From Chitinophaga sp. LS1 (GTDB lineage: Bacteria; Bacteroidota; Bacteroidia; Chitinophagales; Chitinophagaceae): a DNA stretch of 64,000 bases. The notes under the pieces are model-generated. The model was not told where the DNA came from. It did not search any database and saw only the letters and a program-made list of their open reading frames with translations. The DNA lies in the NCBI RefSeq assembly GCF_034274695.1, contig NZ_CP128362.1, positions 8,372,501 to 8,436,500 of the forward strand. Direction: 5' to 3'. The translations under genes and the position numbers were made by a program. This document shows, in pieces, positions 13,141 to 52,703 of the stretch. Numbering within the stretch: position 1 is the stretch's first letter; every line of letters begins with the position of its first letter.

Positions 13141-13182
13141 AAATAAAAACGCTTTTGTCTTTCGGCAAAAGCGTTTTTATTT
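13141..13182. terminator. Bidirectional terminator after the PBP gene
   Basis: AAATAAAAACGCTTTTG (13141-13157), 8-nt loop, CAAAAGCGTTTTTATTT (13166-13182): a perfect 17-bp stem with A- and T-tracts on both sides. It sits next to the start of the minisatellite. Confidence 0.8.
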
Positions 13183-13183
13183 G

Positions 13184-13456
13184 AGATTGTTATTATCTGA
13201 ACTTGATCTAATTTGACTTTGCTATTATCTGAGCTTGCTATTAACTGAGCTTGTTCCAATTTGACTTTGCTATTATTTAAGCTTGTTATTAACTGAGCTT
13301 GTTCCAATTTGACTTTGCTATTATTTGAGCTTGTTATTAACTGAGCTTGTTCCAATTTGACTTTGCTATTATTTAAGCTTGTTATTAACTGAGCTTGTTC
13401 CAATTTGACTTTGCTGCTATTTGAGCTTGTTATTATCTGAGCTTGCTATTATTTAG
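13184..13456. repeat. 48-bp tandem repeat (minisatellite), about 5.5 copies
   Basis: The segment CCAATTTGACTTTGCT recurs at 13256, 13304, 13352 and 13400, exactly 48 bp apart, with a variant at 13208 and degenerate ends. Each unit is itself made of diverged ~12-bp pieces of the type (T/G)AGCTTGTTATTAAC. On the minus strand one frame (13134-13403, ATG at 13403) reads as 16-residue repeats EQAQLITSLNNSKVKL plus a tail that runs through the PBP terminator. That frame may be fortuitous because 48 is a multiple of 3. It fills the space between the PBP and M28 peptidase genes, which converge here; no other gene is visible. Confidence 0.9.
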
Positions 13457-13465
13457 GCTTCGTTT

Positions 13466-14392
13466 TTATTTGTCCGCTACGTAATGCAGCTCTTTGTACT
13501 TCATGGCATTATTGATCAACTGAATGGCCAGTTTAAGCACATCTGACTCCTCTTTTGCCTCTACCTTCTCTGCGGTATCAGTGGGCTTGTGATAGTCGTC
13601 ATGGGGCCCTGTATGGAGGAAAATAACCGGTACTCCACTGATATAGAAATTATGGTGATCAGAAGGCCCTTTGCCTGCCCCATCAGTGAAGAACTTGATA
13701 CCTGGCTGCGCTACACCTTTGAATACATCCGGCCACTCTTCCGCACTTGCATAACCGCCGATACCTAAACCGCGTTCTGCATTGTAACGGCCAATCATAT
13801 CCATATTCAGCATAAAATGTACTTTCTCCAATGGAAATACAGGATGAGCTACATAGTACTTAGAACCCTGCAATCCCATCTCTTCACCACCAAAAGCGAT
13901 GAACAGGAAATTGAATTGTTCCTTCTGTCCGTTCTTTACGAAATACCGGATAAATTCCAGTAAGCCGGCGATGCCGGAGGCATTGTCATCAGCTCCATAA
14001 TGGATCTGTCCTTCCGGGTACTTTCCATCAAACAAATGTGCAGTACCGATATGGTCATAGTGAGCGCCGATGATAATCGTACGGGGGGCGCCGTTATCCA
14101 GGTATCCAATCACATTTCTGCTGGGAATATCATGATGTTCCTTGCGATCAAACGTAAAATCCTGGAAATAACTACTACCGTTTGCTGGTTGCAGGCCCAA
14201 CTTTTTAAACTGTTTCTCCACCCATGCAGCCGCTTTTCTACCACCTTTTTCATCGGTACCACGGCCTTTTAACTTATCGGATGCCAGGTAGTTGACAGTG
14301 CTACGGATACGCGCTTCAGAAGGCATGTAATCCTGCGCAAAAGCATTCACAAAACAAGAGGTGCAGAACACCAACAATAACAATCGCTTCAT
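13466..14392 (-). CDS. Secreted M28-family metallopeptidase
   Basis: 308 residues with a clear signal peptide (MKRLLLLVFCTSCFVNAFAQ). The co-catalytic di-zinc peptidase motifs are present: H111 and D113 in GAHYDHIG, D135/D136 in YGADDNASG, E170/E171 in FGGEEMGLQG, D-M-D in LNMDMIGR, and SDHHNF toward the C-terminus. This is the aminopeptidase/glutaminyl-cyclase-like fold. Length and motif set are normal, so an active periplasmic or secreted exopeptidase is expected. It follows the lanthipeptide-like gene block on the same strand but is separated from it by two hairpin terminators. Its ATG is only 31 bp from the second of these. Confidence 0.93.
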   Translation of the reverse strand: MKRLLLLVFCTSCFVNAFAQDYMPSEARIRSTVNYLASDKLKGRGTDEKGGRKAAAWVEKQFKKLGLQPANGSSYFQDFTFDRKEHHDIPSRNVIGYLDNGAPRTIIIGAHYDHIGTAHLFDGKYPEGQIHYGADDNASGIAGLLEFIRYFVKNGQKEQFNFLFIAFGGEEMGLQGSKYYVAHPVFPLEKVHFMLNMDMIGRYNAERGLGIGGYASAEEWPDVFKGVAQPGIKFFTDGAGKGPSDHHNFYISGVPVIFLHTGPHDDYHKPTDTAEKVEAKEESDVLKLAIQLINNAMKYKELHYVADK

Positions 14393-14558: not shown

Positions 14559-14580
14559 GCCCCCTCGCGCAGGAGGGGGC
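14559..14580 (-). terminator. Terminator after the C39-like gene
   Basis: GCCCCCTC (14559-14566), loop GCGCAG, GAGGGGGC (14573-14580). On the minus strand it is followed by TTTTATT, and it begins 28 bp after the stop codon of the C39-like gene. Confidence 0.7.
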
Positions 14581-14607: not shown

Positions 14608-15063
14608 TTAAAAATCAGGTGGAGAGGGATCCAGGTACAGCATAATGCCATATTCGCCGTCCTGTGTCCATCCTCTCAGAAAATCTAATTTGTCTAATGT
14701 GATCAGCCCAGCCGTAGGGTCGGAAATATAAACTTTGTCCCCCCTTATTTTATACACGACAATAAAACGGCGCTGATACCAGTACCCGATACAGGGTAAC
14801 AGGTCAAGTGATAAAAGGTCAGCCAGAGAAACTTTTGCCCCCAAAGTACCAAAACCAATTTTCCCGGCGGCATCTCCGAGGTCCTGCAGCGGGCTGCCAC
14901 TTTCAGCAGTCGCCCACAGTGACCTTACATATTCATGCGTAAGATTCTTTCCAAAGTGCGTACTTAATATATGCAAACAGGCAGGACCATCGTCCGTTTT
15001 GCCCTGCTGTTTACAGTGGGGAAATGGATGCTTTTTGCTCTGCGGAATCAGACTTTTGATCAT
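14608..15063 (-). CDS. Stand-alone C39 peptidase-like domain, catalytic Cys and His replaced
   Basis: 151 residues, one domain only. It aligns by eye with the N-terminal C39 domain of Bacteroidota bacteriocin exporters: KQQGKTDDGPACLHIL (canonical KQ..(M/E)DCGP.CL), LGDAAGKIGFGTLGAKV, LPCIGYWYQRRFIVVYKI (canonical NHFVVVYKI) and KVYISDPTAGLITL. The oxyanion Gln (Q19) and the Asp of SDP (D115) are kept, but the nucleophile is Asp (D25) and the catalytic His is Arg (R99). Cysteine protease activity is therefore not expected. Catalytically dead C39-like domains are known in HlyB, where they bind substrate. It is downstream of the LanC-like gene (129-bp gap) and followed by a terminator. Role inferred: leader-binding or chaperone protein. 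Confidence 0.8.
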   Translation of the reverse strand: MIKSLIPQSKKHPFPHCKQQGKTDDGPACLHILSTHFGKNLTHEYVRSLWATAESGSPLQDLGDAAGKIGFGTLGAKVSLADLLSLDLLPCIGYWYQRRFIVVYKIRGDKVYISDPTAGLITLDKLDFLRGWTQDGEYGIMLYLDPSPPDF

Positions 15064-15192
15064 ATCCAGGAGTCTTTTTGCAGGTGATTGGGTTATTATC
15101 TCACAACGATGAAAGGCCGGCTATTTGTTTGGGTGTTCAGGTGCATGCACCTGAGGTCGAAAATAGTCTCCATTCGGTTTTTGTTTTAACTA

Positions 15193-16371
15193 TTATAGAA
15201 GTAACAGATCGGTCCATGGAAGTTCTTCATTGATCAGGTGCCCCAACAAGACCAGTGCTACGCCTGGCAGGCCTTCCAGCATGAGGCTTTCGCGGCCTTT
15301 GAAGCTTTCTTCGTTCAGCACAACTTCCAATCTTTTCATTGTTTCATTGATCCAGTAATGCCATCCTTCCAGGTAACCTTCCTCATTACTATAACGGTAT
15401 AACGAATAATAATACTGTGCTAACCCTGCGGTGCCATTCAGAAAGTAAATATCATCGATCTGCGTAGCTTCGCAGGTTCTGCGCATCAGTGAGCTACCGC
15501 CCACGAGATCCGCCATCTGCTTGAGGTTTTCGTCTTGTAAAGCAAAGGATGCCTTGTAAAAAAGAGATACCTGATTCAGATCTCCATAACACCATCCAAG
15601 ACGGTTGTTATAGTTTTTTTGATCTTCTGCTTCACTGGTAGTGAGTGGGAAAAATGACCAGTCCTGTCCGATCAAGTCCACTTCGCGCAGGTGATGGCGT
15701 ACAAAGCGGATGCCTTGTTGTAGCAGGTATCCAGTCTTTAGTGCGTCTATCTCTGCTTCATGCAATGCAGTCAGAACAGAGAAAAATCCTGCCTGTCCCT
15801 GCGATAAACTAAAGTTGATCTGCCCATTACCAAATAAGAAGATATTCCTGAACCAGACGCCATGTTTTGTCACTACACATTTATCGTACAACACACGGAT
15901 GATCTCCCTGAGGTATATCGCTATTTTAGGCTGTGGCAGCCTATCTGTAAAGTACTTGATGATGCCAAACGCACCGTGCAGATAATCCTGTTTATCATCT
16001 TTGATCAGTTGTAAAGCCTGATGGTAGAGATAGTCGTCATATCCGGCCAGTTCCTCATCTATGTCTATATTCAAAAGGCCGTCTTTGTACAGGAGGTTGA
16101 TCACACTGGTAAGGCCGCAGATACCGGTTGCCAGCGAAGGCCCATCCAGTTCAAGGGTTCCTTTATTCATATGATCCAATACCTCGTCGAGCAGCGCATA
16201 TGTCTTATCTAAATAAGTATTGTCTCTGTACCCCTGCCATAAGGAATGATAGTACACGATCAGGCCCAGCTTACCTCCGCTCATCAGGGTGTCATTATCA
16301 ACGGTCTGCTGATCTATGAGCTGATGAAGCTGTGAGATGAGGCTCTCCACTTTTACCGGTTCCTGTACCAT
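15193..16371 (-). CDS. LanC-like protein with degenerate zinc site
   Basis: 392 residues with the double alpha-barrel repeat pattern of LanC cyclases: LATGICGLTSVINLL, YLHGAFGIIKYF, NFSLSQGQAGFFSVLTAL, RLGWCYGDLNQVSLFY, YFLNGTAGLAQYYYSLY and LMLEGLPGVALVLLG. The first zinc Cys is kept (C261 in WCYG). The canonical CHG, which gives the other two zinc ligands, is L311-N312-G313. The catalytic-site His of the (A/S)HG motif is Gln (Q191). Thioether cyclisation by the NisC mechanism is therefore unlikely. It is divergent from the three precursor genes and lies upstream of the C39-like gene. The frame is intact, so it is a conserved-looking pseudo-enzyme or a divergent subfamily rather than a pseudogene. 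ATG at 16371. Confidence 0.82.
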   Translation of the reverse strand: MVQEPVKVESLISQLHQLIDQQTVDNDTLMSGGKLGLIVYYHSLWQGYRDNTYLDKTYALLDEVLDHMNKGTLELDGPSLATGICGLTSVINLLYKDGLLNIDIDEELAGYDDYLYHQALQLIKDDKQDYLHGAFGIIKYFTDRLPQPKIAIYLREIIRVLYDKCVVTKHGVWFRNIFLFGNGQINFSLSQGQAGFFSVLTALHEAEIDALKTGYLLQQGIRFVRHHLREVDLIGQDWSFFPLTTSEAEDQKNYNNRLGWCYGDLNQVSLFYKASFALQDENLKQMADLVGGSSLMRRTCEATQIDDIYFLNGTAGLAQYYYSLYRYSNEEGYLEGWHYWINETMKRLEVVLNEESFKGRESLMLEGLPGVALVLLGHLINEELPWTDLLLL

Positions 16372-16387
16372 TCCTGAATGCTTTTAA

Positions 16388-16395
16388 CAAACTTA
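16388..16395 (-). promoter_or_regulatory. Candidate -7 box upstream of the LanC-like gene
   Basis: Minus-strand TAAGTTTG matches TAnnTTTG exactly, 16 bp upstream of the ATG at 16371. I see no TTTG at the expected -33 position. The remaining 259 bp up to the first precursor gene hold no other gene I can support. Confidence 0.35.
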
Positions 16396-16654
16396 TAAAG
16401 TATGCGGGGGGTAAGGAAAAAAGATACACGGATGTAGGTTTTAGAAGGACGGATTATTTATAGAATAAATGATTTAAAGTTTGTATCTTTCAACAAGAAG
16501 ATAGAGGCATTCGTAAATACATATATTAAATGCCTGCCATTAACCTACCATTTGTACCACGGCATAAGCAGATAAGTAAGGAAACCCACAAACCCCTTAT
16601 CCAGAAAAAATTATAGCTTTTAAATAATATCCATTAATACTTAAATCCGTTTTT

Positions 16655-16819
16655 ATGAAGAATGCAAAAAACATTGAACAGAAAAAGAAAGCAACTCTAA
16701 ACAAGGTAGTTATTTCCTCATTTATTAAATCTCAGGCAAGCAGAAAAAGGATTAATGAGAATTTTAGTGTCATAGATACATTGACTTCCATTAATTGCCA
16801 ATCTGCATTAACTCAATAA
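16655..16819 (+). CDS. Lanthipeptide-like precursor peptide 1
   Basis: 54 residues, start ATG at 16655. The Lys/Asn/Gln-rich leader MKNAKNIEQKKKATLNKVVI carries the TLNKVxIS block that resembles the class I lanthipeptide leaders reported from Bacteroidota (basic run, then L-x-L/L-N-K, then I-S/I-A). The C-terminal part ends in FSVIDTLTSINCQSALTQ, with one Cys and several Ser/Thr. With a single Cys only one (methyl)lanthionine ring could form, if it is modified at all. The first 26 residues match precursor 2 almost exactly while the tails differ, as expected for leader and core. No LanB-type dehydratase is present in the window. Confidence 0.75.
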   Translation: MKNAKNIEQKKKATLNKVVISSFIKSQASRKRINENFSVIDTLTSINCQSALTQ

Positions 16820-16848
16820 TAGTATAGAAATCTATTGCTTATACTTGG

Positions 16849-16875
16849 GGATAACGCTTCGTTATTGCGCTATCC
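16849..16875 (+). terminator. Weak hairpin between precursor genes 1 and 2
   Basis: GGATAACGC (16849-16857) pairs with GCGCTATCC (16867-16875) at 8 of 9 positions. An alternative smaller stem, ATAACG-CTT-CGTTAT, is also possible. There is no T-run. It occupies the same position as the strong hairpin after precursor 2, so it looks like a decayed copy that would let transcription continue into gene 2. Confidence 0.4.
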
Positions 16876-16927
16876 ATATACCTTTATTGTTTTCAATCAT
16901 CTTCTATTAATACTTAAATCCGTTTTT

Positions 16928-17089
16928 ATGAAGAATGCAAAAAACATTGAACAGAAAAAGAAAGTAACTCTAAACAAGGTGATTATTTCCTTATTTACTA
17001 AATCTCCGGTAGGAAAGAATGCAATGAACGCGGCTTCAACAATTGATACAATGACATCTAGTAATTGTAATACTACAATAACTAAGTAA
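16928..17089 (+). CDS. Lanthipeptide-like precursor peptide 2
   Basis: 53 residues, start ATG at 16928; the frame is open upstream to 16835, but the duplicated start context shows that 16928 is the start. Leader MKNAKNIEQKKKVTLNKVII is shared with precursor 1. The tail ends in STIDTMTSSNCNTTITK: one Cys, and many Thr/Ser on both sides of it. The I-D-T-x-T-S-x-N-C block is common to precursors 1 and 2, and a close variant occurs in 3. A strong terminator follows 30 bp downstream. Confidence 0.75.
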   Translation: MKNAKNIEQKKKVTLNKVIISLFTKSPVGKNAMNAASTIDTMTSSNCNTTITK

Positions 17090-17119
17090 TAGCTTAGGTA
17101 TTTATTGTTTATGCTTTGG

Positions 17120-17150
17120 GGTAGCGCTTTTATGAGGCGCTACCTTTTTT
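17120..17150 (+). terminator. Intrinsic terminator after precursor 2
   Basis: GGTAGCGC (17120-17127), 9-nt loop, GCGCTACC (17137-17144), then six T. Confidence 0.8.
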
Positions 17151-17397
17151 ATAAAAAAATGCGAATAACATAGTATAATATCCCATCCTTCTTCCCATAT
17201 TCCAATAAAACGCCCCTATCATTATTTCTTATTTTCCCCTTGAATTTTTTCAAAAATATTACACCGATTTGCATTTTCCATATACAGATTTACCCATTTC
17301 TGGGAGTTACCCTTTCTTCTTTTCCGTATACACGATAACGATAGAAAAAATCTTTGTAAATCCACGTCCTGCGTAGATTCCCTGCGCAGTTACCCTC

Positions 17398-17405
17398 TAA
17401 TTTTG
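17398..17405 (+). promoter_or_regulatory. Candidate -7 box for precursor 3
   Basis: TAATTTTG matches TAnnTTTG exactly and lies 28 bp upstream of the ATG at 17434. No clear -33 TTTG is present. A terminator separates this gene from precursor 2, so a separate promoter is needed. Confidence 0.4.
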
Positions 17406-17433
17406 TCACTGTAATCCCTAATAATTGTGAAAT

Positions 17434-17604
17434 ATGAAACAGACCCAAAAGAACACCCCAAAGAAAACGTTGACCCTAAACAAAGTAAAGATATCCATGT
17501 TTACTAACAACGTTGTTAACACCAAGAATGGCAACAAAAATCCATTCTTTTCCGTTGTAGACACAACCGGTTCATTAAACTGCTTCCCTTCTGTAACAAA
17601 ATAA
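17434..17604 (+). CDS. Lanthipeptide-like precursor peptide 3
   Basis: 56 residues. The leader MKQTQKNTPKKTLTLNKVKI is diverged from genes 1 and 2 at the DNA level, yet keeps TLNKVxIS-(M/x)-F-T. The tail ends in FFSVVDTTGSLNCFPSVTK: again D-T-x-(T/G)-S-x-N-C, with one Cys. Conservation of this pattern despite DNA divergence argues that it is selected and that all three are real genes. It has its own terminator (17669-17729). An overlapping 68-codon frame on the other strand is a shadow. Confidence 0.75.
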   Translation: MKQTQKNTPKKTLTLNKVKISMFTNNVVNTKNGNKNPFFSVVDTTGSLNCFPSVTK

Positions 17605-17668
17605 TTACACGGGGGGACAAGCACAATAAAAAAAACGGTTTTGTAATTCCAGATTTTGTTTAATTTTC

Positions 17669-17729
17669 AAGGCTGAACTAAAAAACCTTCTGGTCGAAGG
17701 TCTCTTTTAGGACAGCCTTTTTTATTTTT
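17669..17729 (+). terminator. Long stepped hairpin terminator after precursor 3
   Basis: Three paired blocks in order: AAGGCTG (17669-17675)/CAGCCTT (17713-17719), CTAAAA (17678-17683)/TTTTAG (17705-17710), ACCTTC (17685-17690)/GAAGGT (17696-17701), loop TGGTC. T-rich tail TTTTTATTTTT. The tail also contains TATTTTTG (17723-17730), a perfect -7 box match, 34 bp upstream of the S41 gene. Confidence 0.85.
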
Positions 17730-17763
17730 GTACCTGTGCTCTATTAAAACCCTTAAAAATTAC

Positions 17764-19221
17764 ATGTTTAATTATCCAGCGATCATCCGCTTGTTTGCTC
17801 TATATCTTTTATTGAACCTGTTTTACCTGCCGCTAACCCACGGACAAACGAAGTCCTGTAATTGCAGGAATAATTTTGACGAAGTAGTTGCCAAAGTAGA
17901 ACATAACTATCCGGGATATCCTATTAAAATTACTGCCGCAAATGCAGCTGCTTTTGAACAATATACAGACAGCATCAGAAATATTGCTGATACGGCCAAT
18001 GCCGTTACCTGTTTTTCTATTTTGCAATCATGGACAGGCTATTTTAAAGATAGGCACCTTACACTCGTTTTTAAAGATATTCCTGAAAATAAGGACCTGA
18101 TCAATCAGATATTTTCCAATGGCGAGAGCTTCCCGCTTTCGAAAGATTCTTTGGTAAAAAAATGGGCTACCGCTCCAGACTATCCTCTGGAAGGCATATG
18201 GACCTTAAGCGGAATGTATGATGTGGCAGTTATAAAAAAGGATTATGGCTACAAGGGGATCATTTTAAAAGGTGATAATAAGTACTGGAAACCGGGACAG
18301 GTTAAATTTGAGCTTCAACCTGATGGAAACAGGACATGGAAGGCTACCCAGTACAATCAGTACCATATAAAGGATACATTCACCGCTTATGTGGATGAAG
18401 CGGCTTTCATCATGGATCTCAAAAGCTATAAGTGGGAGAAAATCTTCCCCGGTCAACCCGGTCAGAAATCAATTCCTGCCGATAGTTTCTATTTTTCAAA
18501 AACAGATAGTAACAACGCTATATTAAGATTACCAAGCTTTGAGCTACCTTATAAACCTCTCATTGATAGCCTGATTACAAACAATTTCCATACGATTACT
18601 CATACCCCGCACCTCATTGTGGACATAAGGGGGAACTATGGAGGATATAACCTCTGCTTCGAAAAATTAATCCCCCTGCTTTATACAAATCCTATTATTA
18701 CACAGGGCCCTGTAGTCAGGGCAACGGCCGAAAACATCCGGTTGTATGAGGTTATGTTAAAAAGTCCACTATTCCCTGATGATAAAAAGGCTCCTTTTAT
18801 CAGGATGCTAAAAAATTTAAAGAAAAATAAAAATGGTTATTACCAACCTCCGGCAGACACAACCACTTTCCCCCAGGTGTATGCGCAACCTGAAAAAGTA
18901 GGATTTCTAATGGATGAAGGCTGTGCCAGCGCGACAGAATTATTAATTTTGGACGCAAAACAAAGTAAAAAAGTAACTTTGTTTGGAAAGCGGTCAGCTG
19001 GAATAGTGGATTATTTAAATCTGGTAGCACCAAGGTCTTTGTCCTGCTCCCGTTTTTTACTCTGGATACCCACTGCCAGATTAGCCACCGTGCCACAACA
19101 TCCTATTGATAACACCGGTATTTTGCCAGACGTTGAAATTCCTCATCATGAGAATTGGGTCAACTATGTGCAGCAATACCTGGAAAACCTGGATATAAAA
19201 ATTGCCAATTCTTCAAAATAA
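17764..19221 (+). CDS. S41-family peptidase-like secreted protein
   Basis: 485 residues from the ATG at 17764; the frame extends to a TTG at 17728, but the hydrophobic signal peptide (FALYLLLNLFYLPLTHG) begins properly at the ATG and is followed by QTKSCNCRNNFDEV. The C-terminal half has S41 features: LIVDIRGNYGGYN, a predicted nucleophile S389 in DEGCASATELLI, then VTLFGKRSAGIVDY and PDVEIP. The Lys general base of CtpA/Prc-type enzymes is not at its usual place after the G..(T/S).G motif, as in some other S41 subfamilies. No PDZ domain is evident. It lies between the precursor genes and a LytS/LytTR pair and has the AT-rich composition of the precursors. Confidence 0.82.
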   Translation: MFNYPAIIRLFALYLLLNLFYLPLTHGQTKSCNCRNNFDEVVAKVEHNYPGYPIKITAANAAAFEQYTDSIRNIADTANAVTCFSILQSWTGYFKDRHLTLVFKDIPENKDLINQIFSNGESFPLSKDSLVKKWATAPDYPLEGIWTLSGMYDVAVIKKDYGYKGIILKGDNKYWKPGQVKFELQPDGNRTWKATQYNQYHIKDTFTAYVDEAAFIMDLKSYKWEKIFPGQPGQKSIPADSFYFSKTDSNNAILRLPSFELPYKPLIDSLITNNFHTITHTPHLIVDIRGNYGGYNLCFEKLIPLLYTNPIITQGPVVRATAENIRLYEVMLKSPLFPDDKKAPFIRMLKNLKKNKNGYYQPPADTTTFPQVYAQPEKVGFLMDEGCASATELLILDAKQSKKVTLFGKRSAGIVDYLNLVAPRSLSCSRFLLWIPTARLATVPQHPIDNTGILPDVEIPHHENWVNYVQQYLENLDIKIANSSK

Positions 19222-19252
19222 AAAGGTTTCGATCCAAAAAGCAATCTCTAAA

Positions 19253-20323
19253 ATGCTACTGCATGTGGGGATATGGATTTTGTATGCAGCCCTGCAGGTT
19301 GTAGCAACTGGTATGCCGCTGTCTAACATGTTGCCAGTCTTTATAGTAACCTCTGCATTATTTGCCTTGCTATCTGTCGTTTTTTATGGGAATGCAGAAT
19401 TGCTATTACCACGAACATTGGAAAAAAGTAAAAAGACACTTTGGATCATTGGCATAACATGCTTCTTTGTCTATGTTATGCTAACCCGGTACGTTCTTCT
19501 ATATAAGCTTTATCCTGCCGCATATCATATTCCGGCTCCTTCTTTTGAATTTCTCACACTTGTTACTGCTTCACTTTGGTGGTGGTTTCAAGCCATTGCC
19601 CTTTCTACCGCATACTGGTTTTTTAAAGTATCCATTAATAGAGAAAGAAAAATTAACTTACAAAAAGAAGAAATCAACCGTAAGGAAAGAGAACAACTGC
19701 AACTCAAACAGGAAAAACTGGAACTCGAAGTCGCCTACCTCCGCGCCCAGATCAATCCACACTTCCTCTTCAACACCCTCGGATATTTCTACAATAAAAC
19801 CGCCAACTCCCACCCGGACGTAGCCGAAGGCATCGCCGCCCTTACCAATATCATGCGCTCTTCGCTAAAGAAAAAAGGCCCCGACGGCATGGTCTCCTTA
19901 GAAGAAGAAATCGAACACATCGAAAGCCTGATCAGTATCTACTATATGCGTTTCAATAACAATATCCATATTGAATACAGCAGACCTGACAACCTGCATG
20001 GCCAACGAATACTGCCACACATCCTCATCACACTGGTAGAAAACGCTTTCAAACACGGGGAACTGCACAACGCCGCTTACCCGCTGAAAATAAAGCTCAC
20101 TTTAGATGACAATGGCATCTATTTCTGTATCAACAACAAAAAACGAATAGGTCCAAAAGAAATCTCCAATGGCATCGGCATGGAATACGTGCAGCGCCAG
20201 CTGGACAACACCTATCCTAAAAAATATTCCTTTGATATAAAAGATACGGACCTGTTTTATAGCCTGTCCTTGCATATTGCTACCACCGAAATTACCCTAC
20301 ATGATCAACTGTTATATAATTGA
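19253..20323 (+). CDS. LytS/YehU-type sensor histidine kinase
   Basis: 356 residues from the ATG at 19253. The frame is open from a TTG at 19202 inside the S41 gene, which is the alternative start. Four TM helices lie in about 1-125 (MLLHVGIWILYAALQVVATG, ..VFIVTSALFALLSVVFYG, LWIIGITCFFVYVML, FLTLVTASLWWWFQAIALS), then a charged coiled-coil linker. The His_kinase domain follows with H170 in RAQINPHFLFNTLGYF, the N-box LITLVENAFKHG and a short G-box GIGMEYVQRQLDNTYP. It overlaps the response-regulator gene by 23 bp. The membrane half is AT-rich like the S41 gene, whereas the kinase half from about 19.7 kb is GC-richer like core genes. Confidence 0.92.
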   Translation: MLLHVGIWILYAALQVVATGMPLSNMLPVFIVTSALFALLSVVFYGNAELLLPRTLEKSKKTLWIIGITCFFVYVMLTRYVLLYKLYPAAYHIPAPSFEFLTLVTASLWWWFQAIALSTAYWFFKVSINRERKINLQKEEINRKEREQLQLKQEKLELEVAYLRAQINPHFLFNTLGYFYNKTANSHPDVAEGIAALTNIMRSSLKKKGPDGMVSLEEEIEHIESLISIYYMRFNNNIHIEYSRPDNLHGQRILPHILITLVENAFKHGELHNAAYPLKIKLTLDDNGIYFCINNKKRIGPKEISNGIGMEYVQRQLDNTYPKKYSFDIKDTDLFYSLSLHIATTEITLHDQLLYN

Positions 20324-21038
20324 CGACGAACAACACGCCATAGACCTGCTAACGGGTTATGTACAACGTACCCCCTTCCTGAAACTGGTAGGTAGTACCA
20401 CCGAAGCCCTCGATGCGATCAAAGTGATCAGTAATGAAAAAGTAGACCTGGTATTCCTGGATATTCACATGCCCAGCATATCCGGTATCGACCTGCTGAA
20501 AATCTTTAACAACCAGACCAAAGTCGTTCTCACCACCGCCTATAGCGAATACGCCATGGACGGTTATGAACACGACGTAGTCGACTACCTCCTCAAACCC
20601 ATCACCTACCAGCGCTTTCTGAAAGCCGCACAGAAAACACTGAACATGTTCCAAACCATGTATGTGACCAAAGGTGAAAGCAATGAAAAGGTAGAACCCG
20701 AAGTAGACTACCTGTTTGTAAAATCAGAACATAAGGGTAAACAGATCAAAGTCAATTTCAACGATATCGATTATATAGAAGGACTGAAAAACTATGTCGC
20801 TTTTCATTGTGATAAGGAAAAGATTCTGGCCTTGCTGAAGATGAAAGACCTGGAGCAAACCCTGCCCCCACGGCAGTTCGCCCGAATTCACAACTCCTTC
20901 ATCATCTCCCTGAACAGGATCGTTTCTGTAGATGGTAACCAGGTCATCCTGCGCAAACCAGATCAGCAAACGGTAGCCCTGCCAATCGGCATTACGTTCA
21001 AGCAACCTTTCTTTGATATGATCAAATTAAATAAGTAA
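20301..21038 (+). CDS. LytTR-family response regulator
   Basis: 245 residues from the ATG at 20301 (the upstream TTG at 20277 would extend it inside the kinase gene). Receiver domain with acidic D8/D9, phospho-acceptor D54 in VFLDIHMPSISG, TTAYSEYAMDG and KPITYQRF. LytTR DNA-binding domain in about 140-245 (DYIEGLKNYVAFHC, RIHNSFIISLNRI). Translationally coupled to the upstream histidine kinase. It is a candidate regulator of the adjacent peptide genes, by location only. A bidirectional hairpin follows. Confidence 0.94.
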   Translation: MINCYIIDDEQHAIDLLTGYVQRTPFLKLVGSTTEALDAIKVISNEKVDLVFLDIHMPSISGIDLLKIFNNQTKVVLTTAYSEYAMDGYEHDVVDYLLKPITYQRFLKAAQKTLNMFQTMYVTKGESNEKVEPEVDYLFVKSEHKGKQIKVNFNDIDYIEGLKNYVAFHCDKEKILALLKMKDLEQTLPPRQFARIHNSFIISLNRIVSVDGNQVILRKPDQQTVALPIGITFKQPFFDMIKLNK

Positions 21039-45960: not shown

Positions 45961-48570
45961 TTACAACCCTCCTATTATGTACCAGTTCGATCCGTCTGAC
46001 TGGAAGGTATAAGCCATCTTTGCAGTAGTAGGTATTGTTACAGTAGTAGCTCCATCTATCTGGTAACTTCCGGTCGTTTTCACTGTAAAAGTACCTGTGG
46101 TGGTAGCTCTTTTTAATACATATATTCTGCCCTCACAGGTGGTTGGATCAGGTAAAGTAATAGTATGTGTACCGGTTCCTGATTTAATATAAGTATAGTC
46201 ATCCGCAGTCATCGTGTAAGTCTGCGTACCTGTTGAAGAATTATTAGTGATAGGCAATGCCATACTACCATTTACTTCCAGTCTTGATGCAGGAGTACTT
46301 GTATTAATCCCTACATTACCACCTTTCATCAAAAAGAGCCTGTAATCTGCCACATTGGATTCTACGAAGTTCAGACCTGTTCCTAACATATTCCAGTGCC
46401 AGGTAATTACACCGGTAGAATCTTCAAATGCCAATACATCCGCACCGTTAGCTTTGATTACCAACGGGTGCGCATTGTAGGCGGTTGCTCCATTGAACAG
46501 GGATACTACTTTGCTTGCGTAGGTACCTGTACCCTTTGTACCACGGAACAACTCCTTGCTGTTATATTTTAACACCATCGGCTGATCAGCTGTGGTACCC
46601 AGAAAACTGTTGGCATCCGTATTACTGTTACCTGTAAATAACCAGTTGGATGCAGCCGTTTCTGCTTCAGGTCCCCAGCTGGTAGTCGCAGCATCATATT
46701 TCAAAATATAATTGTCAGTAGGCGCTGTTGCAGCCACTCTTACACCTTGTAGTTTGCTGGCATTCCATACTGCCAGCGAACTATCAGCATACAATGTACC
46801 GGCAGTCGTCAGCTTGATGGTATTATCCAAAGTTACTTCCTGTGCTGCACCTGTACCGGTTGAATAACGGCCTAACAATTTTTGTGTTGTTACAGTCTGA
46901 ATATCTGCTGGTATCAGTGTACGGAAAGAAGGTGTTCCATTTGCTGTGGTTGGCGCAGCCAAAACAGTGTACTGTGTTTGAGACGCCAGTGTAGCAGTAA
47001 TTGTTCCATTTGCAGTAAGCGGAGAATTCGTCACTGTAAAAATGGAAGGTAATGAAAGGCCTACAGATGTTAAACCTGTAGATGTGGGTGTAGCCCATGA
47101 CAACGTCGTACCATTAGATGTCAATACCTGTCCGGATGTACCTACCGTTGTCAATCCTGTACCACCCTGAGATACAGGCACTGTACCTGTAATCTGGGAG
47201 AATGGTAAGGAAGGAATATCTGCTGCTACCAGTGTACGGAACGAGGGCGTACCTGCAGCTCCGTTGGGTGCGCCTAAAAATGTATTTGCTGTCTGTGAGC
47301 TCAGTGAACCTGTCAATGTACCATTCGCTGTCAGCGGAGAATTCGAAAATGTATACAGTGGTAATGTTATTCCGACTGAAGTCAGACCCGCATTATCATC
47401 AGCAGCCGGTGTCCAGCTCGTACCATTATATTTTAATACCTGTCCGGTAGTCGGTGCTGTAAGTGATACTGCTATACTCTGGATTTTGCTCGCATTGTAA
47501 ACCGCCAGCGTAGTATCTACGTATATATAACCACCGGTAGTCATTTTCAATGTTCTGTCCATTGACACAGACTGCCCAGTACCTGTACCATTGGAATAAC
47601 GACCTACAAGGCGCTGTGTACCCAATGTCATATCAGTAGGAACCAGTGAGCGGAATGTAGGTGTACCTGCACTTGCATCAGGAGCAGCAAACACCGTATT
47701 CGCAGTCTGACTGCTTGTACCGATTGTAAATGTTCCATTAGCAGTTAAAGTGGCCGGAGATACTGTCAGAAAAGAAGGCACTACTAAACCAATAGAGGAA
47801 ATAGAACCACTGTTATCATCAGCAGCCGGTGCCCAGGTGGTACCATTCCATTTCAGTACCTCGCCGGAAGTCGCCCCTGCCTGTGCTATCTTGGTACCTG
47901 TTACAGCGCCGGCAGCAATAGTAGGATTAGGATATGTACCTGTGAGGTCACCACCCGCTGTACCTACCGGAGGTAATCCGGTCAGTTGTTTCTTCAGCAG
48001 TTTGCCTCCATCGATCAGGAGCACACTATCCTTGGTATTATCTATACTGATACCCGTCAGGAACACATCCTGATTAGCAGTCAATGTATTTGTAAATGTC
48101 TTGGCGCCTGCCAGTGTTTGTGCATTGGTATTCAAAAAACCACTATTGGTAGCTGTCGCATCCGGTATATTTAAAGTATGCGCTCCTGCCACTGACGTAA
48201 AGCCAAATGTACCGGCTGTATTTGTAGTAGCCAGTGACTGCACGGCAATTGTCTGTCCATTCAGGCTGGTAATCGCATACCCTTCAGGCAGCAATGGATG
48301 CCAATGCCCATTACTACGAATACACAGACTATTGTTGAGCGTGAGGTAAATGATCATACCATCAGGAGCAGTAGCAATAGCACCAGATGTAGTATCAGCA
48401 ATCCGGGGCAGTAGTAGCCCCTGAGATTTACTTTCAAGTTCCAGTAACGCTGACTTTTGCAGGGAACTGGGATTATCACCCAGTTTTAACTGTTGAGCAA
48501 ATGTCAATGTGGACCAAAACAGGAACACTGGAAATAGTTGAACGGCTCGGACAAGGAATTTAGTCTTCAT
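45961..48570 (-). CDS. Exported repeat protein A (tail-fibre-like, paralog of B and C)
   Basis: 869 residues with a signal peptide (VRAVQLFPVFLFWSTLTFAQ). N-terminal module: QLKLGDNPSSLQKSALLELE, GLLLPRIADT and APDGMIIYL, shared with paralogs B and C. The middle consists of long Thr/Ser/Gly/Ala-rich repeats: LTANGT, SSQTANT(V/F), GAAGTPSFRTLV(A/P)ADI, GRYS(N/T)GTGT, VLKYNGTSWTPAADDN. These resemble phage tail-fibre or beta-solenoid proteins. A C-terminal module (TYTMTADDYTYIKSGTGTHT, then GRIYVLKRATT and FQSDGSNWYIIGGL) is shared with B and C. No T9SS sorting domain is seen. Last gene of a four-gene operon. Role inferred: surface or extracellular fibre; function unknown. Confidence 0.75.
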   Translation of the reverse strand: MKTKFLVRAVQLFPVFLFWSTLTFAQQLKLGDNPSSLQKSALLELESKSQGLLLPRIADTTSGAIATAPDGMIIYLTLNNSLCIRSNGHWHPLLPEGYAITSLNGQTIAVQSLATTNTAGTFGFTSVAGAHTLNIPDATATNSGFLNTNAQTLAGAKTFTNTLTANQDVFLTGISIDNTKDSVLLIDGGKLLKKQLTGLPPVGTAGGDLTGTYPNPTIAAGAVTGTKIAQAGATSGEVLKWNGTTWAPAADDNSGSISSIGLVVPSFLTVSPATLTANGTFTIGTSSQTANTVFAAPDASAGTPTFRSLVPTDMTLGTQRLVGRYSNGTGTGQSVSMDRTLKMTTGGYIYVDTTLAVYNASKIQSIAVSLTAPTTGQVLKYNGTSWTPAADDNAGLTSVGITLPLYTFSNSPLTANGTLTGSLSSQTANTFLGAPNGAAGTPSFRTLVAADIPSLPFSQITGTVPVSQGGTGLTTVGTSGQVLTSNGTTLSWATPTSTGLTSVGLSLPSIFTVTNSPLTANGTITATLASQTQYTVLAAPTTANGTPSFRTLIPADIQTVTTQKLLGRYSTGTGAAQEVTLDNTIKLTTAGTLYADSSLAVWNASKLQGVRVAATAPTDNYILKYDAATTSWGPEAETAASNWLFTGNSNTDANSFLGTTADQPMVLKYNSKELFRGTKGTGTYASKVVSLFNGATAYNAHPLVIKANGADVLAFEDSTGVITWHWNMLGTGLNFVESNVADYRLFLMKGGNVGINTSTPASRLEVNGSMALPITNNSSTGTQTYTMTADDYTYIKSGTGTHTITLPDPTTCEGRIYVLKRATTTGTFTVKTTGSYQIDGATTVTIPTTAKMAYTFQSDGSNWYIIGGL

Positions 48571-48704
48571 AAAAATTACCCGGATTTAAACAAAAACTTA
48601 TAAATATGACTAAGAAAGCAGGCAGGGTCTTATTCGCCCACTTGCTTTCTTCGCCATTCAATTATGTGTCCTTGTTTAGTTTCAATTCATTTTCGGTTGT
48701 CTTA

Positions 48705-50270
48705 TCAATGATCTATCACTATTACTTTGCAGGTATACACTTCTTTCATTGTGTCTTTTTGTTTCAGCACGAGGAAGTAAGTACCAGCTGGCAAGTTGTG
48801 TACTTCCACATCTCCGGTTCCTGTAATCTCCTGCCTACGCATCACCTGACCCCATACATCGTACAATTGCATTATCAACGTAGTCTTGATACCTCTTACT
48901 TTGATCTTGAAATCGCCCCAGTTCGGGTTCGGGTAAACGGTTACATCCACCAGCGGTCCGACTTCTCTTACATCAGAGTAGACGTACTTGCCGGTTTTTG
49001 ATACTGCCTTAATGCGATAATAGCTCCATCCATCGTAGTCATTTGTATCCTGGTAATAGTAACTCAATTTAGTTGTGCTGTTTCCATTAGGCGCTTTCGT
49101 GGCGACGGTGCCTACCTTAGTAAAGGTTTCTTCGTTATCCAGTCTGCGCTCTACTTCAAACACATTCATGTTAGTCTCTCTGCTGGTGATCCAAACCAGA
49201 TCTACCAATGAGATACTTACACGGTAAGCGTTGAAGTCAATAATTGTAGCTGGTGAATAGCTATTGGAAAAGTTGGTCTTTTTAGCAAAATAAGCATTCA
49301 GGCCAATGCCCCCGAAACCGCGGGAATGCATGGTAGCTGATGATACCATGGTCTGAGAAGTCAACGTACCAGTGCTCATGTTGTCATTCACACTGTAACG
49401 ATGTTCCCACTCACTGTCCTTGAATAAAGAGATATAACTCTCATCCCTGTTTATATTATATTCATCGCCCTCATTACTATCCATATGCTGCAGGGTTACA
49501 GCTGTTTTGCCGGTACCACCCAACTCCTCTCCTATGTTCCATGTTTTGTACACAACAGTGTCATAGATGGAAGTTCCGGAACTGGCATATTGATATACAC
49601 TGTCAAATACACGTGCATGAAAATCTTCTGCATCTCCTTCATACTGCACAGCAGCTGGTGCATAATTGCTGGCAGAGCTACCTATCGGGAATACCACCTG
49701 TCCGGCACTGCTGGCTAGTTTGGAACGATACAGGAATCCACCGCTGGAGGAAGTACCTGTTACCACAAAACGCCGGTCTGAATAACCAGTGATAGATCCC
49801 GCAGAGGTATCGCCGACCATGAGGTTCTGTCCGTTCAGGAATACGAGCCCGTTAGATAAGCTAAGGGTATTTCTGATCTTCAGGTCATTGAGGGTATAAA
49901 AGATAACACCATCCGGGTTATTGATATCTACGTTGGGAAAACTCGCACCAATCTTTGCAGCCACATTGAATCCGCCGGAAATAGTCTGCTGTCCGCTACT
50001 ACCTGCAAAACTAAAAATGCCCCCGGTGCCTTTGAGGCCGGAGGTACTTTCGTCTTTGAGAGAAGCGTTAAAGCCATTCGTCCATACTTTACCATAAAAA
50101 TAAAGGTTAGCATTGGGGCTCGATCCTAATGCCCCCTCATTCGTTATGTTACCAAATACCCCGACGTTACCAAAATTCCATACCTGCGCACCGGTAGAGA
50201 TGTAAGTCTCCTGCCCATAGCTGAGATGGAACGTAACGCAAAAAAGTATTATGGAGAATAAGAACTTCAT
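48705..50270 (-). CDS. Secreted protein with T9SS type A C-terminal sorting domain
   Basis: 521 residues. Signal peptide (MKFLFSIILFCVTFHLSYGQ). A beta-rich N-terminal half has repeated Gly/Asn turns (NFGNVGVFGNITNEGALGSS, GVIFYTLNDLKIRNTLSLSN). A fibronectin-III-like segment follows at about 340-430 (VDLVWITSRETNMNVFEVER, YYYQDTNDYDGWSYYRIKAV). The C-terminal type IX sorting domain has VYPNPNWGDFKIKV, MQLYDVWGQVM and NLPAGTYFLVLKQK. It is therefore exported to the cell surface by the T9SS. It sits 16 bp after paralog B and upstream of paralog A, so it is a likely partner or anchor for those fibres. Confidence 0.88.
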   Translation of the reverse strand: MKFLFSIILFCVTFHLSYGQETYISTGAQVWNFGNVGVFGNITNEGALGSSPNANLYFYGKVWTNGFNASLKDESTSGLKGTGGIFSFAGSSGQQTISGGFNVAAKIGASFPNVDINNPDGVIFYTLNDLKIRNTLSLSNGLVFLNGQNLMVGDTSAGSITGYSDRRFVVTGTSSSGGFLYRSKLASSAGQVVFPIGSSASNYAPAAVQYEGDAEDFHARVFDSVYQYASSGTSIYDTVVYKTWNIGEELGGTGKTAVTLQHMDSNEGDEYNINRDESYISLFKDSEWEHRYSVNDNMSTGTLTSQTMVSSATMHSRGFGGIGLNAYFAKKTNFSNSYSPATIIDFNAYRVSISLVDLVWITSRETNMNVFEVERRLDNEETFTKVGTVATKAPNGNSTTKLSYYYQDTNDYDGWSYYRIKAVSKTGKYVYSDVREVGPLVDVTVYPNPNWGDFKIKVRGIKTTLIMQLYDVWGQVMRRQEITGTGDVEVHNLPAGTYFLVLKQKDTMKEVYTCKVIVIDH

Positions 50271-50286
50271 TATTAACTTTTGTTTG

Positions 50287-52617
50287 TTAGTAGCCTTGGT
50301 TTGAACCTTTATACAACACTACCCAATAAGAACCTGTACTTTGTATCGCGGCTGAAATACGTTCGTCCAGTGTCATCGTTGTATTATTGCCCAAACTGCC
50401 AATAAATTCACTGCTGCTTGGTTTTACATATAACTTACCGGAACCGGAACTGGTGACAGTATTGGAAAATACATATATTCTGCCCGGGCAGGTAGCTGCT
50501 GATGGCAGGTTGGCTGTTACCGAAGCTATATTCCCATAATTGGAGCTTAACCTTGCTACCATATAATAAGTCTCATCCAGGTTCACCGTAACTGCTGTAG
50601 AAGGGTTATCATAACTGGCAACGGCTGTAGCAAAGGAACCATTCACGTGCAGTGTACTGGTAGGTGTGGTTGTTTTGATCCCCACATGGCTACTGGCATC
50701 CACACGCATTACTTCGGTACTATTCGTCTTTACCACCAGTGCTTTACTATCAGTAGTACCAATGAAGTTAGTCCCTGCTGTAGTGCCGCTGTTACCAGTC
50801 GTAGACCAGGTACCGCTACCACCTGAACTTCCGGAAACTGTCGTAGGCGTCCAACTGGTACCATCATATACAAGGTACTGTCCGGAAGTAGGTGCAGTAG
50901 CTGCTACTGCTGTACTTTGCAATTGGTTTGCATTCCAGATAGAAGAAGTATTATTTGCTTTGATAGCTCCGCTGGTGAGACTGAGTGTAGTTGCGTCATA
51001 ACCCAGGGTAGCAATGTCACCGCTGGTGCTGTTACGCCCTAATATATTATCAGGAGTACCGGTGCTACCAGTCAGGCGCATCGTTCCTCTTACATCCAAA
51101 GTTTGTGCAGGAGTTACACCAGCCATGTTGATACCTACTTTCTTTGACTGCATGCGCATCATCTCAGTATAAGATGAATCTGCATAGTAGTAACTTCTGA
51201 ACAGAATAGGCTCATCCCCATCATCACCGATGATGAATTCAAAACCCCCACCATTGTTACTGCCGGTAGAACCCAATTCAAAGAAATCAGTACCGGCAGC
51301 AGATCCTTTAAGGCGGAAGTTGCCGTCAGTGGTAGTATAGAATTTAGGTTTATAAAACTGAACAGAGGAAGGTACATCGAACTGCAGGGCAGATTTCATC
51401 AAGGTGACACTTTCATCACTATCTGTATAGCTAGGGTAATTCTGTACCAGTCCTAAAGTAGCACGGCGGCCAAACTCAAGGAAAGAGGTGTTGTTAGATT
51501 TGATCACCATCTTCACATCATTGGTTGTACCAAGGAAATGAGTACTGGAATTTACATTGGAGTTACCGGTAATTAACCAGTTATTGGCAGCTGCATTTTG
51601 AGTGACTACCACATCACCGTTGGCATTCACCGCAAGGGTATTGGCCATTGAACTTTGTAAAGTGGCAGCTCCCAGACCAGTCAGTCTTAATCCTGACAAA
51701 CCAGAAGCAGCGGTCGTACCACCTACTTCCAAAGTATTGGCAGGCGTTGTGCTGATGCCTACTCCCAGGTTAGTACCAATCAAACCATTGCCACTGATAG
51801 AGAAACTGGCAGTCTGTGTGCCGGTAGATATATTTTGAATATAGTTACCAGATCCTGAAGGAATATCTGCAGCTACCAGTGCACGGAAAGAAGGTGTACC
51901 TGCCGTGCCGTTTGGAGCAGCAAATACAGTGTTAGCTGCCTGTGAATTAAATGTGCCAGACAATGTACCGGTAGATGTAACAGGGCTACCACTAACTGTA
52001 AATATTGAAGAAGGTAATGACAAGGCAACAGAAGTAACAGAGCCAACTGCTTTAGGTAGCCATGTGCTGGTAGCAGCACTCCATGTCAGCACATCCTGAT
52101 CGGCTGGTGCAGTAGTGGCAATGTTGCGGCCCTGTAACTGGGACGCATTCCATAAATTAGAAGTATTCAAAGCTGAGATAACTCCTGCACCAGATAAACT
52201 GATACCCGTGCCAGCACTGAACGCCGCTCTTGCTCTCGCGTCAGTATAATAAAGATTGACAGATTCTGAAATATTGGCGGTGGTTAAGCTAACAACTGGA
52301 CCAGTTTGTCCATTTACAGATGAAATTGCAGATGTTTCGTCTATGAGTTTATTCCATACTCCGTTTTTACGGATGTATAATAATTTATCAGGAACATAGT
52401 ATATAATCATACCATCAGGAGCAGTATTCAGCGGAGCGATGGTATAGTCGGAAATTCTTGGGAGTAATAAGCCTTGTTTGTCACTATTCAGATCCAGCAG
52501 CGCAGACTTCTCAATTGAAGTGGGATTTTTCCCCAACTTCAATTGCTGGGCACCTACATATGCTGATGGTAGAATAAGCAGGCACAAAAGCACAAGCCGG
52601 TTTGGGAAAGTTATCAT
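50287..52617 (-). CDS. Exported repeat protein B (paralog of A and C)
   Basis: 776 residues. Signal peptide (LVLLCLLILPSAYVGAQ), then the shared module QLKLGKNPTSIEKSALLDLN, GLLLPRISDYTIAPLNTAPD. Middle: STITATGT-like Thr/Ser-rich repeats (SPVTSTGTLSGTFNSQAANT, GTAGTPSFRALVAADIPSG), and blocks such as GNSNVNSSTHFLGTTNDVKM and GNSGTTAGTNFIGTTDSKAL. C-terminal module: VTVNLDETYYMVARLSSNYG, CPGRIYVFSNTV, QSTGSYWVVLY. Similar proteins in Bacteroidota are annotated only as hypothetical or tail-fibre-domain proteins. Its start is 86 bp after paralog C. Confidence 0.75.
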   Translation of the reverse strand: MITFPNRLVLLCLLILPSAYVGAQQLKLGKNPTSIEKSALLDLNSDKQGLLLPRISDYTIAPLNTAPDGMIIYYVPDKLLYIRKNGVWNKLIDETSAISSVNGQTGPVVSLTTANISESVNLYYTDARARAAFSAGTGISLSGAGVISALNTSNLWNASQLQGRNIATTAPADQDVLTWSAATSTWLPKAVGSVTSVALSLPSSIFTVSGSPVTSTGTLSGTFNSQAANTVFAAPNGTAGTPSFRALVAADIPSGSGNYIQNISTGTQTASFSISGNGLIGTNLGVGISTTPANTLEVGGTTAASGLSGLRLTGLGAATLQSSMANTLAVNANGDVVVTQNAAANNWLITGNSNVNSSTHFLGTTNDVKMVIKSNNTSFLEFGRRATLGLVQNYPSYTDSDESVTLMKSALQFDVPSSVQFYKPKFYTTTDGNFRLKGSAAGTDFFELGSTGSNNGGGFEFIIGDDGDEPILFRSYYYADSSYTEMMRMQSKKVGINMAGVTPAQTLDVRGTMRLTGSTGTPDNILGRNSTSGDIATLGYDATTLSLTSGAIKANNTSSIWNANQLQSTAVAATAPTSGQYLVYDGTSWTPTTVSGSSGGSGTWSTTGNSGTTAGTNFIGTTDSKALVVKTNSTEVMRVDASSHVGIKTTTPTSTLHVNGSFATAVASYDNPSTAVTVNLDETYYMVARLSSNYGNIASVTANLPSAATCPGRIYVFSNTVTSSGSGKLYVKPSSSEFIGSLGNNTTMTLDERISAAIQSTGSYWVVLYKGSNQGY

Positions 52618-52703
52618 AGGTATTAATTGGTTTCACGAATACAGGCACACAAAAGGAATAAACAGGAGCAGCAGATACTGCTCCTGTTATAAAATCTTAT
52701 CCC

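Follow-up and report, generated by a model that had tools for sequence, protein, structure and literature searches.

The 64,000-nucleotide stretch analyzed here (the window), part of the 8.67-Mb single-contig genome of Chitinophaga sp. LS1, contains a lanthipeptide-like locus in which three short precursor open reading frames (ORFs) diverge from the genes for a LanC-like protein and a stand-alone C39-like protein. A preliminary description made from the sequence alone had placed these five genes at 14608 to 17604, and ORF calls and Pfam matches confirm them at those positions. Synteny in relatives, however, indicates that this extent is too short: an S41 family peptidase, a LytS-type histidine kinase and a LytTR response regulator (17764 to 21038), overlooked in that description, are also members of the locus and of the cluster from which it descends. 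Its genes are as follows.

14608..15063, minus strand: stand-alone C39-like protein, 151 amino acids (aa) (PF03412, E = 1.5e-22)
15193..16371, minus strand: LanC-like protein, 392 aa (PF05147, E = 2.7e-16)
16655..16819, plus strand: precursor peptide 1, 54 aa (ORF and profile search)
16931..17089, plus strand: precursor peptide 2, 52 aa (ORF and profile search)
17434..17604, plus strand: precursor peptide 3, 56 aa; the related genomes G053, G046, G049 and G045 each carry one precursor, which corresponds to it
17764..19221, plus strand: S41 family peptidase, 485 aa from the ATG common to its orthologs (PF03572, 5.4e-12)
19202..20323, plus strand: LytS-type histidine kinase (PF06580, 1.7e-19), with a sensor half (19202-19681) and a kinase half (19682-20323)
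20277..21038, plus strand: LytTR response regulator (PF00072, 2.6e-18; PF04397, 2.4e-16)

Relatives were drawn from 79 Chitinophaga genomes (nearly one per species) and from one scan of named genomes that gave 13 loci; our counts exclude two of these, L096 (a 4-kb contig with S41-kinase-regulator-LanC pieces, not long enough to reveal LanB) and L098 (Dyadobacter, 25% identity). The locus recurs with synteny in 5 of the 79 genomes, namely, that of the window strain (G000), G053 (the sole conspecific genome compared with it), G046, G049 and G045, which is more than chance. Matches to the LanC-like protein at E values up to 1e-10 occur in 53 of the 79 genomes, and only 5 of them reach 88 to 100% identity. 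No LanB and no C39-ABC exporter were found by blastp among window ORFs of at least 70 aa, except a C39-ABC gene clipped by the window end (63505 onward), in line with the earlier statement that neither lies nearby.

All three window precursors carry the leader core TLNKVxIS and the tail D-T-x-(T/G)-S-x-N-C, as had been reported; their lengths are 54, 52 and 56 aa rather than 53 to 56 aa. A precursor profile recovered seven strong precursors, three of them in the window genome and a single one in every other genome of the five, together with one weak extra match in G049 (E = 0.009), and both the leader box TLNK and the motif D-T-x-x-S-x-N-C are kept in all seven. The window precursors show an LxLxK-type box and an S...C tail, and the model NF038153 matches none of the three, whereas it does match precursors of relatives and of a second cluster at 2.80 Mb of the same genome (see below). 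They have no Gly-Gly site, and by eye the hydrophobic residues gripped by C39 domains are gone; in LahT, the C39 domain grips leader hydrophobic positions -4, -7 and -12 (PMC6363468). The loss of both features fits a catalytically dead C39-like protein. Ahead of precursor 3, a stretch of 120 bases (~17310-17430) is nearly identical in the five genomes although the following gene differs, and it holds a CTGCGTAG-N5-CTGCGCAG pair that is possibly a regulator site.

In the S41 peptidase, the Ser of S-x-x-E and the motif D-x-H are conserved across all 11 aligned rows, and we take these Ser and His columns to be catalytic. The sensor half of the kinase has three hydrophobic segments within residues 18 to 100, and translation of the regulator, judged from the sequence, probably starts at the in-frame ATG at 20301. 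The arrangement is thus of the agr type, with a precursor next to a multi-pass sensor kinase and a LytTR regulator; no AgrB-type Pfam match was found among the locus proteins, the rest of the genome not having been searched for AgrB.

Residue losses and constraint in the LanC-like and C39-like proteins

Aligned to its relatives, the LanC-like protein keeps Cys261 (NisC Cys284; in GWCYGD) and Asp129 (NisC Asp141) and has Gln191, Leu311 and Asn312 in place of NisC His212, Cys330 and His331 (NisC numbering from PMC10604976, placed on the alignment by hand). The earlier statement that CHG is missing therefore stands, the motif reading LNG, with the addition that the first zinc-ligand Cys and the Asp remain while the acid/base His is also lost (Gln191). 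The Cys-Cys-His zinc ligands are incomplete in all five genomes, being C-L-N in three and C-C-N in G049 and G045, and the ligand His is Asn in every one of them, at pairwise synonymous divergence (dS) of up to 0.63. An AlphaFold model of the protein (mean predicted local distance difference test [pLDDT] score, 82.9; poorly predicted stretches, 182-187 and 230-259) ranks LanCL2, MadC, LanCL1, GCR2 and NisC at the top of a structure search; a glycosidase-type toroid was ruled out, as LanC structures outrank glycosidases in that search. A sequence search of the Protein Data Bank with the protein gave no relevant match. Its residues also do not correspond to ThurKC-type sites (Ser/Phe/Asp ligands with Asp at the His212 site), being Cys/Leu/Asn plus Gln. 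Because class III cyclase domains cyclize without zinc ligands (PMC10604976), missing ligands do not prove that the protein is inactive.

In the C39-like protein, DCG reads DDG, with the catalytic Cys replaced by Asp and the catalytic His by Arg in the alignment to relatives; the earlier wording that it lacks Cys and His is right for the catalytic pair and wrong for the protein as a whole, which contains other Cys and His residues. Its AlphaFold model (mean pLDDT, 80.6) matches C39 domains best, including the PCAT1, LahT and ComA structures. In a phylogenetic tree, it clusters with the C39 domains of five exporters (support, 97/97), nearest to the exporter of locus L043 (87/86), on a long branch of 1.3 changes per column. 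On this tree, the protein derives from the N-terminal domain of a C39-ABC exporter; descent from the stand-alone active C39 peptidases found beside LanB in L074 to L076 is unsupported. The loss of Gly-Gly and of the hydrophobic positions from the precursors argues against its binding the leader in the usual way. G049 (L041) has, just after its intact C39-like gene, a short and degraded duplicate of the C39 tail.

The LanC-like gene is intact in all five genomes, with a ratio of nonsynonymous (dN) to synonymous divergence of 0.049 to 0.128 over 10 pairs, and the C39-like gene shows 0.065 to 0.207 over 6 pairs. The LanC genes of three relatives have a dN of 0.010 to 0.017 at a dS of 0.15 to 0.21 (dN/dS, 0.06 to 0.08), near the value for the LanC-like gene. 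By these substitution patterns, the locus is kept by selection and plain decay is not the case, since the four other genomes also carry the LanC-like gene in intact form and under constraint. The preliminary description had named broken homologs elsewhere as a sign of such decay, and these were found only for the C39-like gene and in only one of the five genomes (G045).

Among 79 LanC positions invariant in eight relatives (including L051), 65 are kept in all five genomes, and 3 of the 14 changed ones are catalytic (catalytic, 3 of 4 changed; other invariant positions, 11 of 75; p = 0.016); with L051 left out, the counts are 3 of 5 and 13 of 82 (p = 0.041). Preferential loss of LanC catalytic sites is thus weakly supported. 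On a tree of 17 rows, which leaves out the near copies L039, L049, L050 and L054, all six rows that lack LanB have broken ligands, as against 1 of the 11 that bear it, the exception being L051, where the first Cys is Gly. The distribution of LanB on this tree requires three changes, which we read as losses, and the link between missing LanB and broken ligands has three independent cases behind it (sign test, median p = 0.25).

These counts also bear on the possibility, which we regard as unlikely, that the locus is a dead lanthipeptide cluster in slow decay whose two-component system has been retained for another purpose. Such decay would agree with the C39-like pseudogene and the C39 tail fragment, with a stepwise loss of LanC ligands (CNG in G049 and G045, LNG in three genomes) and with the concentration of broken ligands in rows without LanB, a pattern that involves three separate changes. 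It would leave unexplained a LanC-like gene that is intact in five of five genomes at a dN/dS near 0.1 although its ligand His is Asn in all of them, a C39-like gene constrained in four of five and precursor motifs kept in seven of seven.

Relation to fuller lanthipeptide clusters

LanC relatives at 34 to 45% identity adjoin homologs of the window kinase and regulator, and most also adjoin LanB and an S41 peptidase; similar gene company is found in Niastella caeni (S41 not seen) and in a Chitinophagaceae metagenome-assembled genome (MAG). Ten relative loci bear LanB (L043, L045 to L051, L091 and L095). Within the available stretches, five of these (L043, L045, L046, L091 and L095, spanning Chitinophaga, Niastella and the Chitinophagaceae MAG) also have a C39-ABC exporter and an HlyD-type protein, and no S41 was evident in L043, L046 and L091. 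By eye, the leaders of precursors beside most relative loci end in Gly-Gly; that of L051 does not. The order in L043, regulator-kinase-precursors divergent from LanC-LanB-C39ABC, is also that of the window, where LanB and the exporter body are missing. Judged from this gene company, the L043 order and the grouping of the C39-like protein in its tree, the window locus descends from a class I lanthipeptide cluster and has been stripped of LanB, the exporter body and Gly-Gly.

The same family includes two more LanC genes, L044 (G051) and L052 (G030), which have broken ligands and no LanB beside them, as the LanB search agrees, and which retain precursor-like ORFs together with the kinase and regulator. 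In L051 (G067), the first zinc Cys of LanC is Gly, LanB is distant, the precursor lacks Gly-Gly and no C39-ABC gene was seen; this is perhaps an intermediate state.

The suggestion that a dehydratase is encoded elsewhere in the window genome was borne out, Pfam LanB models matching that genome at only two places, 2.80 Mb and 7.73 Mb, the latter LanB being split. LanB is present in 14 of 14 genomes examined. The 2.80-Mb cluster (L056:6859-11537) has an ordinary LanB and LanC, its LanC type occurring in 51 of the 79 genomes (E up to 1e-80); all five genomes have its LanB (999 aa; open frame, 1009-1012), and G049 and G045 have no other PF04738 match. The preliminary description had held that an ordinary LanBC cluster with an identical leader would speak for decay; the cluster exists, and its leader is related, not identical, to that of the window. 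Its two precursors in the window genome lack Gly-Gly, whereas in the homologous loci L074 to L076 (G061, G044 and G024), where a stand-alone C39 protein with intact DCG and His lies beside LanB, 14 of 16 precursor-like ORFs keep Gly-Gly by eye. From this comparison, the window locus and the 2.80-Mb cluster of this lineage both appear to have left Gly-Gly processing. The 7.73-Mb locus (L069:10069-17753) comprises the split LanB (857 and 277 aa), a C39-ABC exporter, a 608-aa LanC/LanM-like protein and a Gly-Gly precursor.

A LanB shared by the five genomes makes conceivable, though in our estimate improbable, a two-component-regulated lanthipeptide locus whose antimicrobial product is made in trans by the LanB (and LanC) of the 2.80-Mb cluster; the LanC-like protein would then be a helper or a metal-independent cyclase, the kinase would sense the product or stress and the variation described below would reflect an arms race. 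The resemblance between the leader core of the 2.80-Mb precursors and that of the window accords with this, as does the ligand-free cyclization by class III domains (PMC10604976). The residues replacing the ligands here (Cys, Leu, Asn and Gln), however, differ from the Ser, Phe, Asp and Asp667 of ThurKC, the leader likeness is merely that of a generic LxLxK-type box and the sensor-specific divergence points instead to recognition of a ligand by the kinase.

A strain-variable block and its surroundings

Comparison with relatives revealed a feature that the preliminary description had missed, a strain-variable block of precursor, S41 and sensor.

16456..19750, no strand: strain-variable (agr-like) block of precursors, S41 and kinase sensor half (identity to G053, 70-92% in 250-base bins versus 96-100% just outside)
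16456..17305, no strand: stretch with precursors 1 and 2 and no aligned counterpart in G053 or G046 (gap of 850 bases between aligned pieces)

The comparison with G053 spans 23.7 kb, as its contig ends at window position ~23,700. The two are 99.7% identical across 13.3 kb on the left, and aligned 1-kb bins outside the block show 97.5 to 100% identity, whereas precursor 3, S41 and the sensor half fall to 70 to 92% in 250-base bins flanked by bins of 96 to 99%. On the left, the block starts in the region upstream of lanC; on the right, it ends close to the boundary between the sensor and kinase halves. Against G046 (~52 kb compared), the block is the lowest-identity stretch, bar a partly aligned bin at 46 kb.

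Between the window and G053, dN and dS are 0 and 0.012 for the regulator, 0 and 0.015 for PBP1A, 0.003 and 0.069 for LanC and 0.004 and 0.103 for the kinase half, versus 0.264 and 0.646 for the sensor half, 0.153 and 1.39 for precursor 3 and 0.060 and 0.528 for S41. In this one conspecific pair, then, precursor and sensor vary and the kinase half and regulator do not, as in agr-type systems. In every one of the 10 pairs among the five genomes, dN is higher in the sensor half than in the kinase half (0.087-0.296 versus 0.004-0.047), and the window sensor is 57 to 60% identical to each of the other four. A general tendency to variable sensors was not found in three LanB-bearing relatives used as a control, which show no sensor excess (dN, 0.008-0.016 versus 0.019-0.025 for the kinase half); the L043/L044 pair shows a milder one (0.199 versus 0.067), and no comparable pattern is seen in a TPR-type kinase also encoded in the window (dN, 0.007 to G046). 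Flanking genes unite the window with G053 (support, 100/100), and the block rejects this topology (approximately unbiased [AU] test, p = 0.00016), as does the sensor alone (p = 0.007).

The block might instead be a neutral recombination tract from another Chitinophaga species, silent on function, and this we consider the least probable of the alternatives. It would account for tract-like edges seen in a single conspecific pair and for S41 divergence that is mostly synonymous. Against it, block divergence is also raised between G053 and G046 (dS, 0.64 for S41 and 0.40 for the sensor, versus 0.10 for the regulator, 0.14 for PBP1A and 0.22 for the kinase half), the sensor excess recurs in all 10 pairs and the edges coincide with the lanC upstream region and the sensor/kinase border.

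Promoter and terminator scans of the window gave 10 promoters versus 9.0 expected and 6 terminators versus 2.7 expected, all consensus matches only; two of the latter concern the locus.

14559..14580, minus strand: terminator-like hairpin and T-run closing the lanC-like/C39-like unit (8 pairs, 7 GC; consensus match only)
17118..17146, plus strand: terminator-like hairpin 3' of precursor 2 (13 pairs; consensus match only)

Elsewhere in the window, tandem 48-base units (5.6 copies, 92% match) with EQAQLIT-type repeats in translation lie at 13173-13472, between the PBP1A and M28 peptidase genes. The minus strand of 45961-54563 encodes a run of long proteins, three of which share an N-terminal KLGDNPS..KSA.LEL..GLLLPR-like motif, and the stretch at 46 kb that aligns only in part with G046 falls within it. 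From 63505 to the window end (L058:6006-9521) lies the C39-ABC exporter gene, with a radical SAM protein (PF04055) just beyond, probably another cluster for a ribosomally synthesized and post-translationally modified peptide.

Possible signalling function and precedents

The S41 peptidase, kinase and regulator as locus members, together with the strain-variable block, point to signalling, and we give a probability of about one half to the reading that the locus is a stripped class I lanthipeptide cluster now acting as a peptide-signal/receptor module. The precursors, of which the window strain has three and each of the four relatives a single one, would give rise to a released peptide; the adjacent LytS-type kinase would read it and relay the signal to the LytTR regulator. 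The S41 enzyme would be the likeliest local processing peptidase. The LanC-like and C39-like proteins, which have lost the usual catalytic residues, would most likely serve as leader-binding helpers, binding the leader or each other; that they bind and present the leader, as earlier suggested from the sequence, is possible. If the tail is dehydrated, a LanB would have to act in trans, most likely that of the 2.80-Mb cluster. A more specific version, to which we lean rather less than evenly, is a Bacteroidota peptide-pheromone system with pherotypes that arose from a lanthipeptide cluster, in which LanC and C39 are now noncatalytic chaperones and precursor, S41 and sensor are swapped as one cassette like agrB-D-C.

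Several observations weigh against a signalling module. No C39-ABC gene lies near the locus, no exporter or leader-cleavage site was identified and, by eye with no predictor run, the precursors have no signal peptide. The C39-like gene, intact in four genomes, is a pseudogene in G045. Neither S41 alone (AU p = 0.069) nor precursor 3 alone (p = 0.456, 168 columns) rejects the flank topology, the S41 differences are mostly synonymous and the correlation of precursor with sensor distances (r = 0.84) comes from 10 nonindependent pairs confounded by kinship. With a single conspecific pair, moreover, the block may reflect a single neutral transfer from a different species.

The closest precedents differ in several respects. 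Bacteroidetes class I lanthipeptides have LxLxKx5L leaders, Gly-Gly and a C39 protease (Walker et al. 2020, PMC7268733); the window resembles them in its leader (LTLNKx5F in precursor 3, with F for the last L, and A or V for the first L in precursors 1 and 2), in the Ser/Thr and single Cys of the tail and in its LanC and C39 folds, and differs in lacking Gly-Gly, LanB, an exporter and the usual catalytic residues of LanC and C39. The fuller Chitinophagaceae S41-kinase-regulator-LanC-LanB(-C39ABC) clusters (L045/L089 of C. japonensis, L095 of the MAG and, without S41, L091 of Niastella caeni) consist of homologous genes; the window has lost LanB, the exporter body, the HlyD-type protein and Gly-Gly, and the relatives also vary in their parts. 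Staphylococcal agr has a hypervariable agrB-D-C region (PMC10482373), and by analogy the window block has its anatomy, with a precursor, a multi-pass sensor kinase, a LytTR regulator and a hypervariable tract ending inside the kinase gene; unlike agr, the window locus belongs to Bacteroidota, has S41 and pseudo-LanC/C39 proteins and no AgrB and uses a PF06580-type kinase.

The pseudo-enzymes likewise have partial parallels. CA_C0082 of Clostridium acetobutylicum, a LanM-like Agr effector, is also a lanthipeptide-synthetase relative without zinc ligands near a peptide-pheromone system with AgrA; it is, however, LanM-like rather than LanC, lies downstream of the agr genes and was not derived together with its precursors (PMC10301443). 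The C39-like domain of HlyB shares a C39 fold without the catalytic Cys (PMC6363468; Foldseek match 3zua, rank 21), whereas the window protein stands alone and is not fused to an ABC exporter. Bacteroidales LanC-like genes without the zinc motif and LanB (PMC10352776) adjoin radical SAM and carbohydrate-active enzyme (CAZyme) genes and are thought not to be LanC; the window protein, in contrast, is closely related to cluster LanC proteins, and its model ranks LanC over glycosidases. Each piece thus has a precedent, and the combination appears to be new: it is named in none of the titles and abstract starts listed on peptide pheromones, LytTR and Bacteroidota, which come from a partial open-licence literature and so give weak evidence of novelty.

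The sharp difference in putative peptide and receptor between two strains of one species recalls known bacterial pheromone systems. If the proposed signalling module is real, an antibiotic-peptide cluster can shrink to a signalling module with its enzymes surviving without their usual chemistry, the locus would make pherotype variation in Bacteroidota open to test and the pseudo-LanC and pseudo-C39 proteins would allow leader binding to be studied separately from catalysis.

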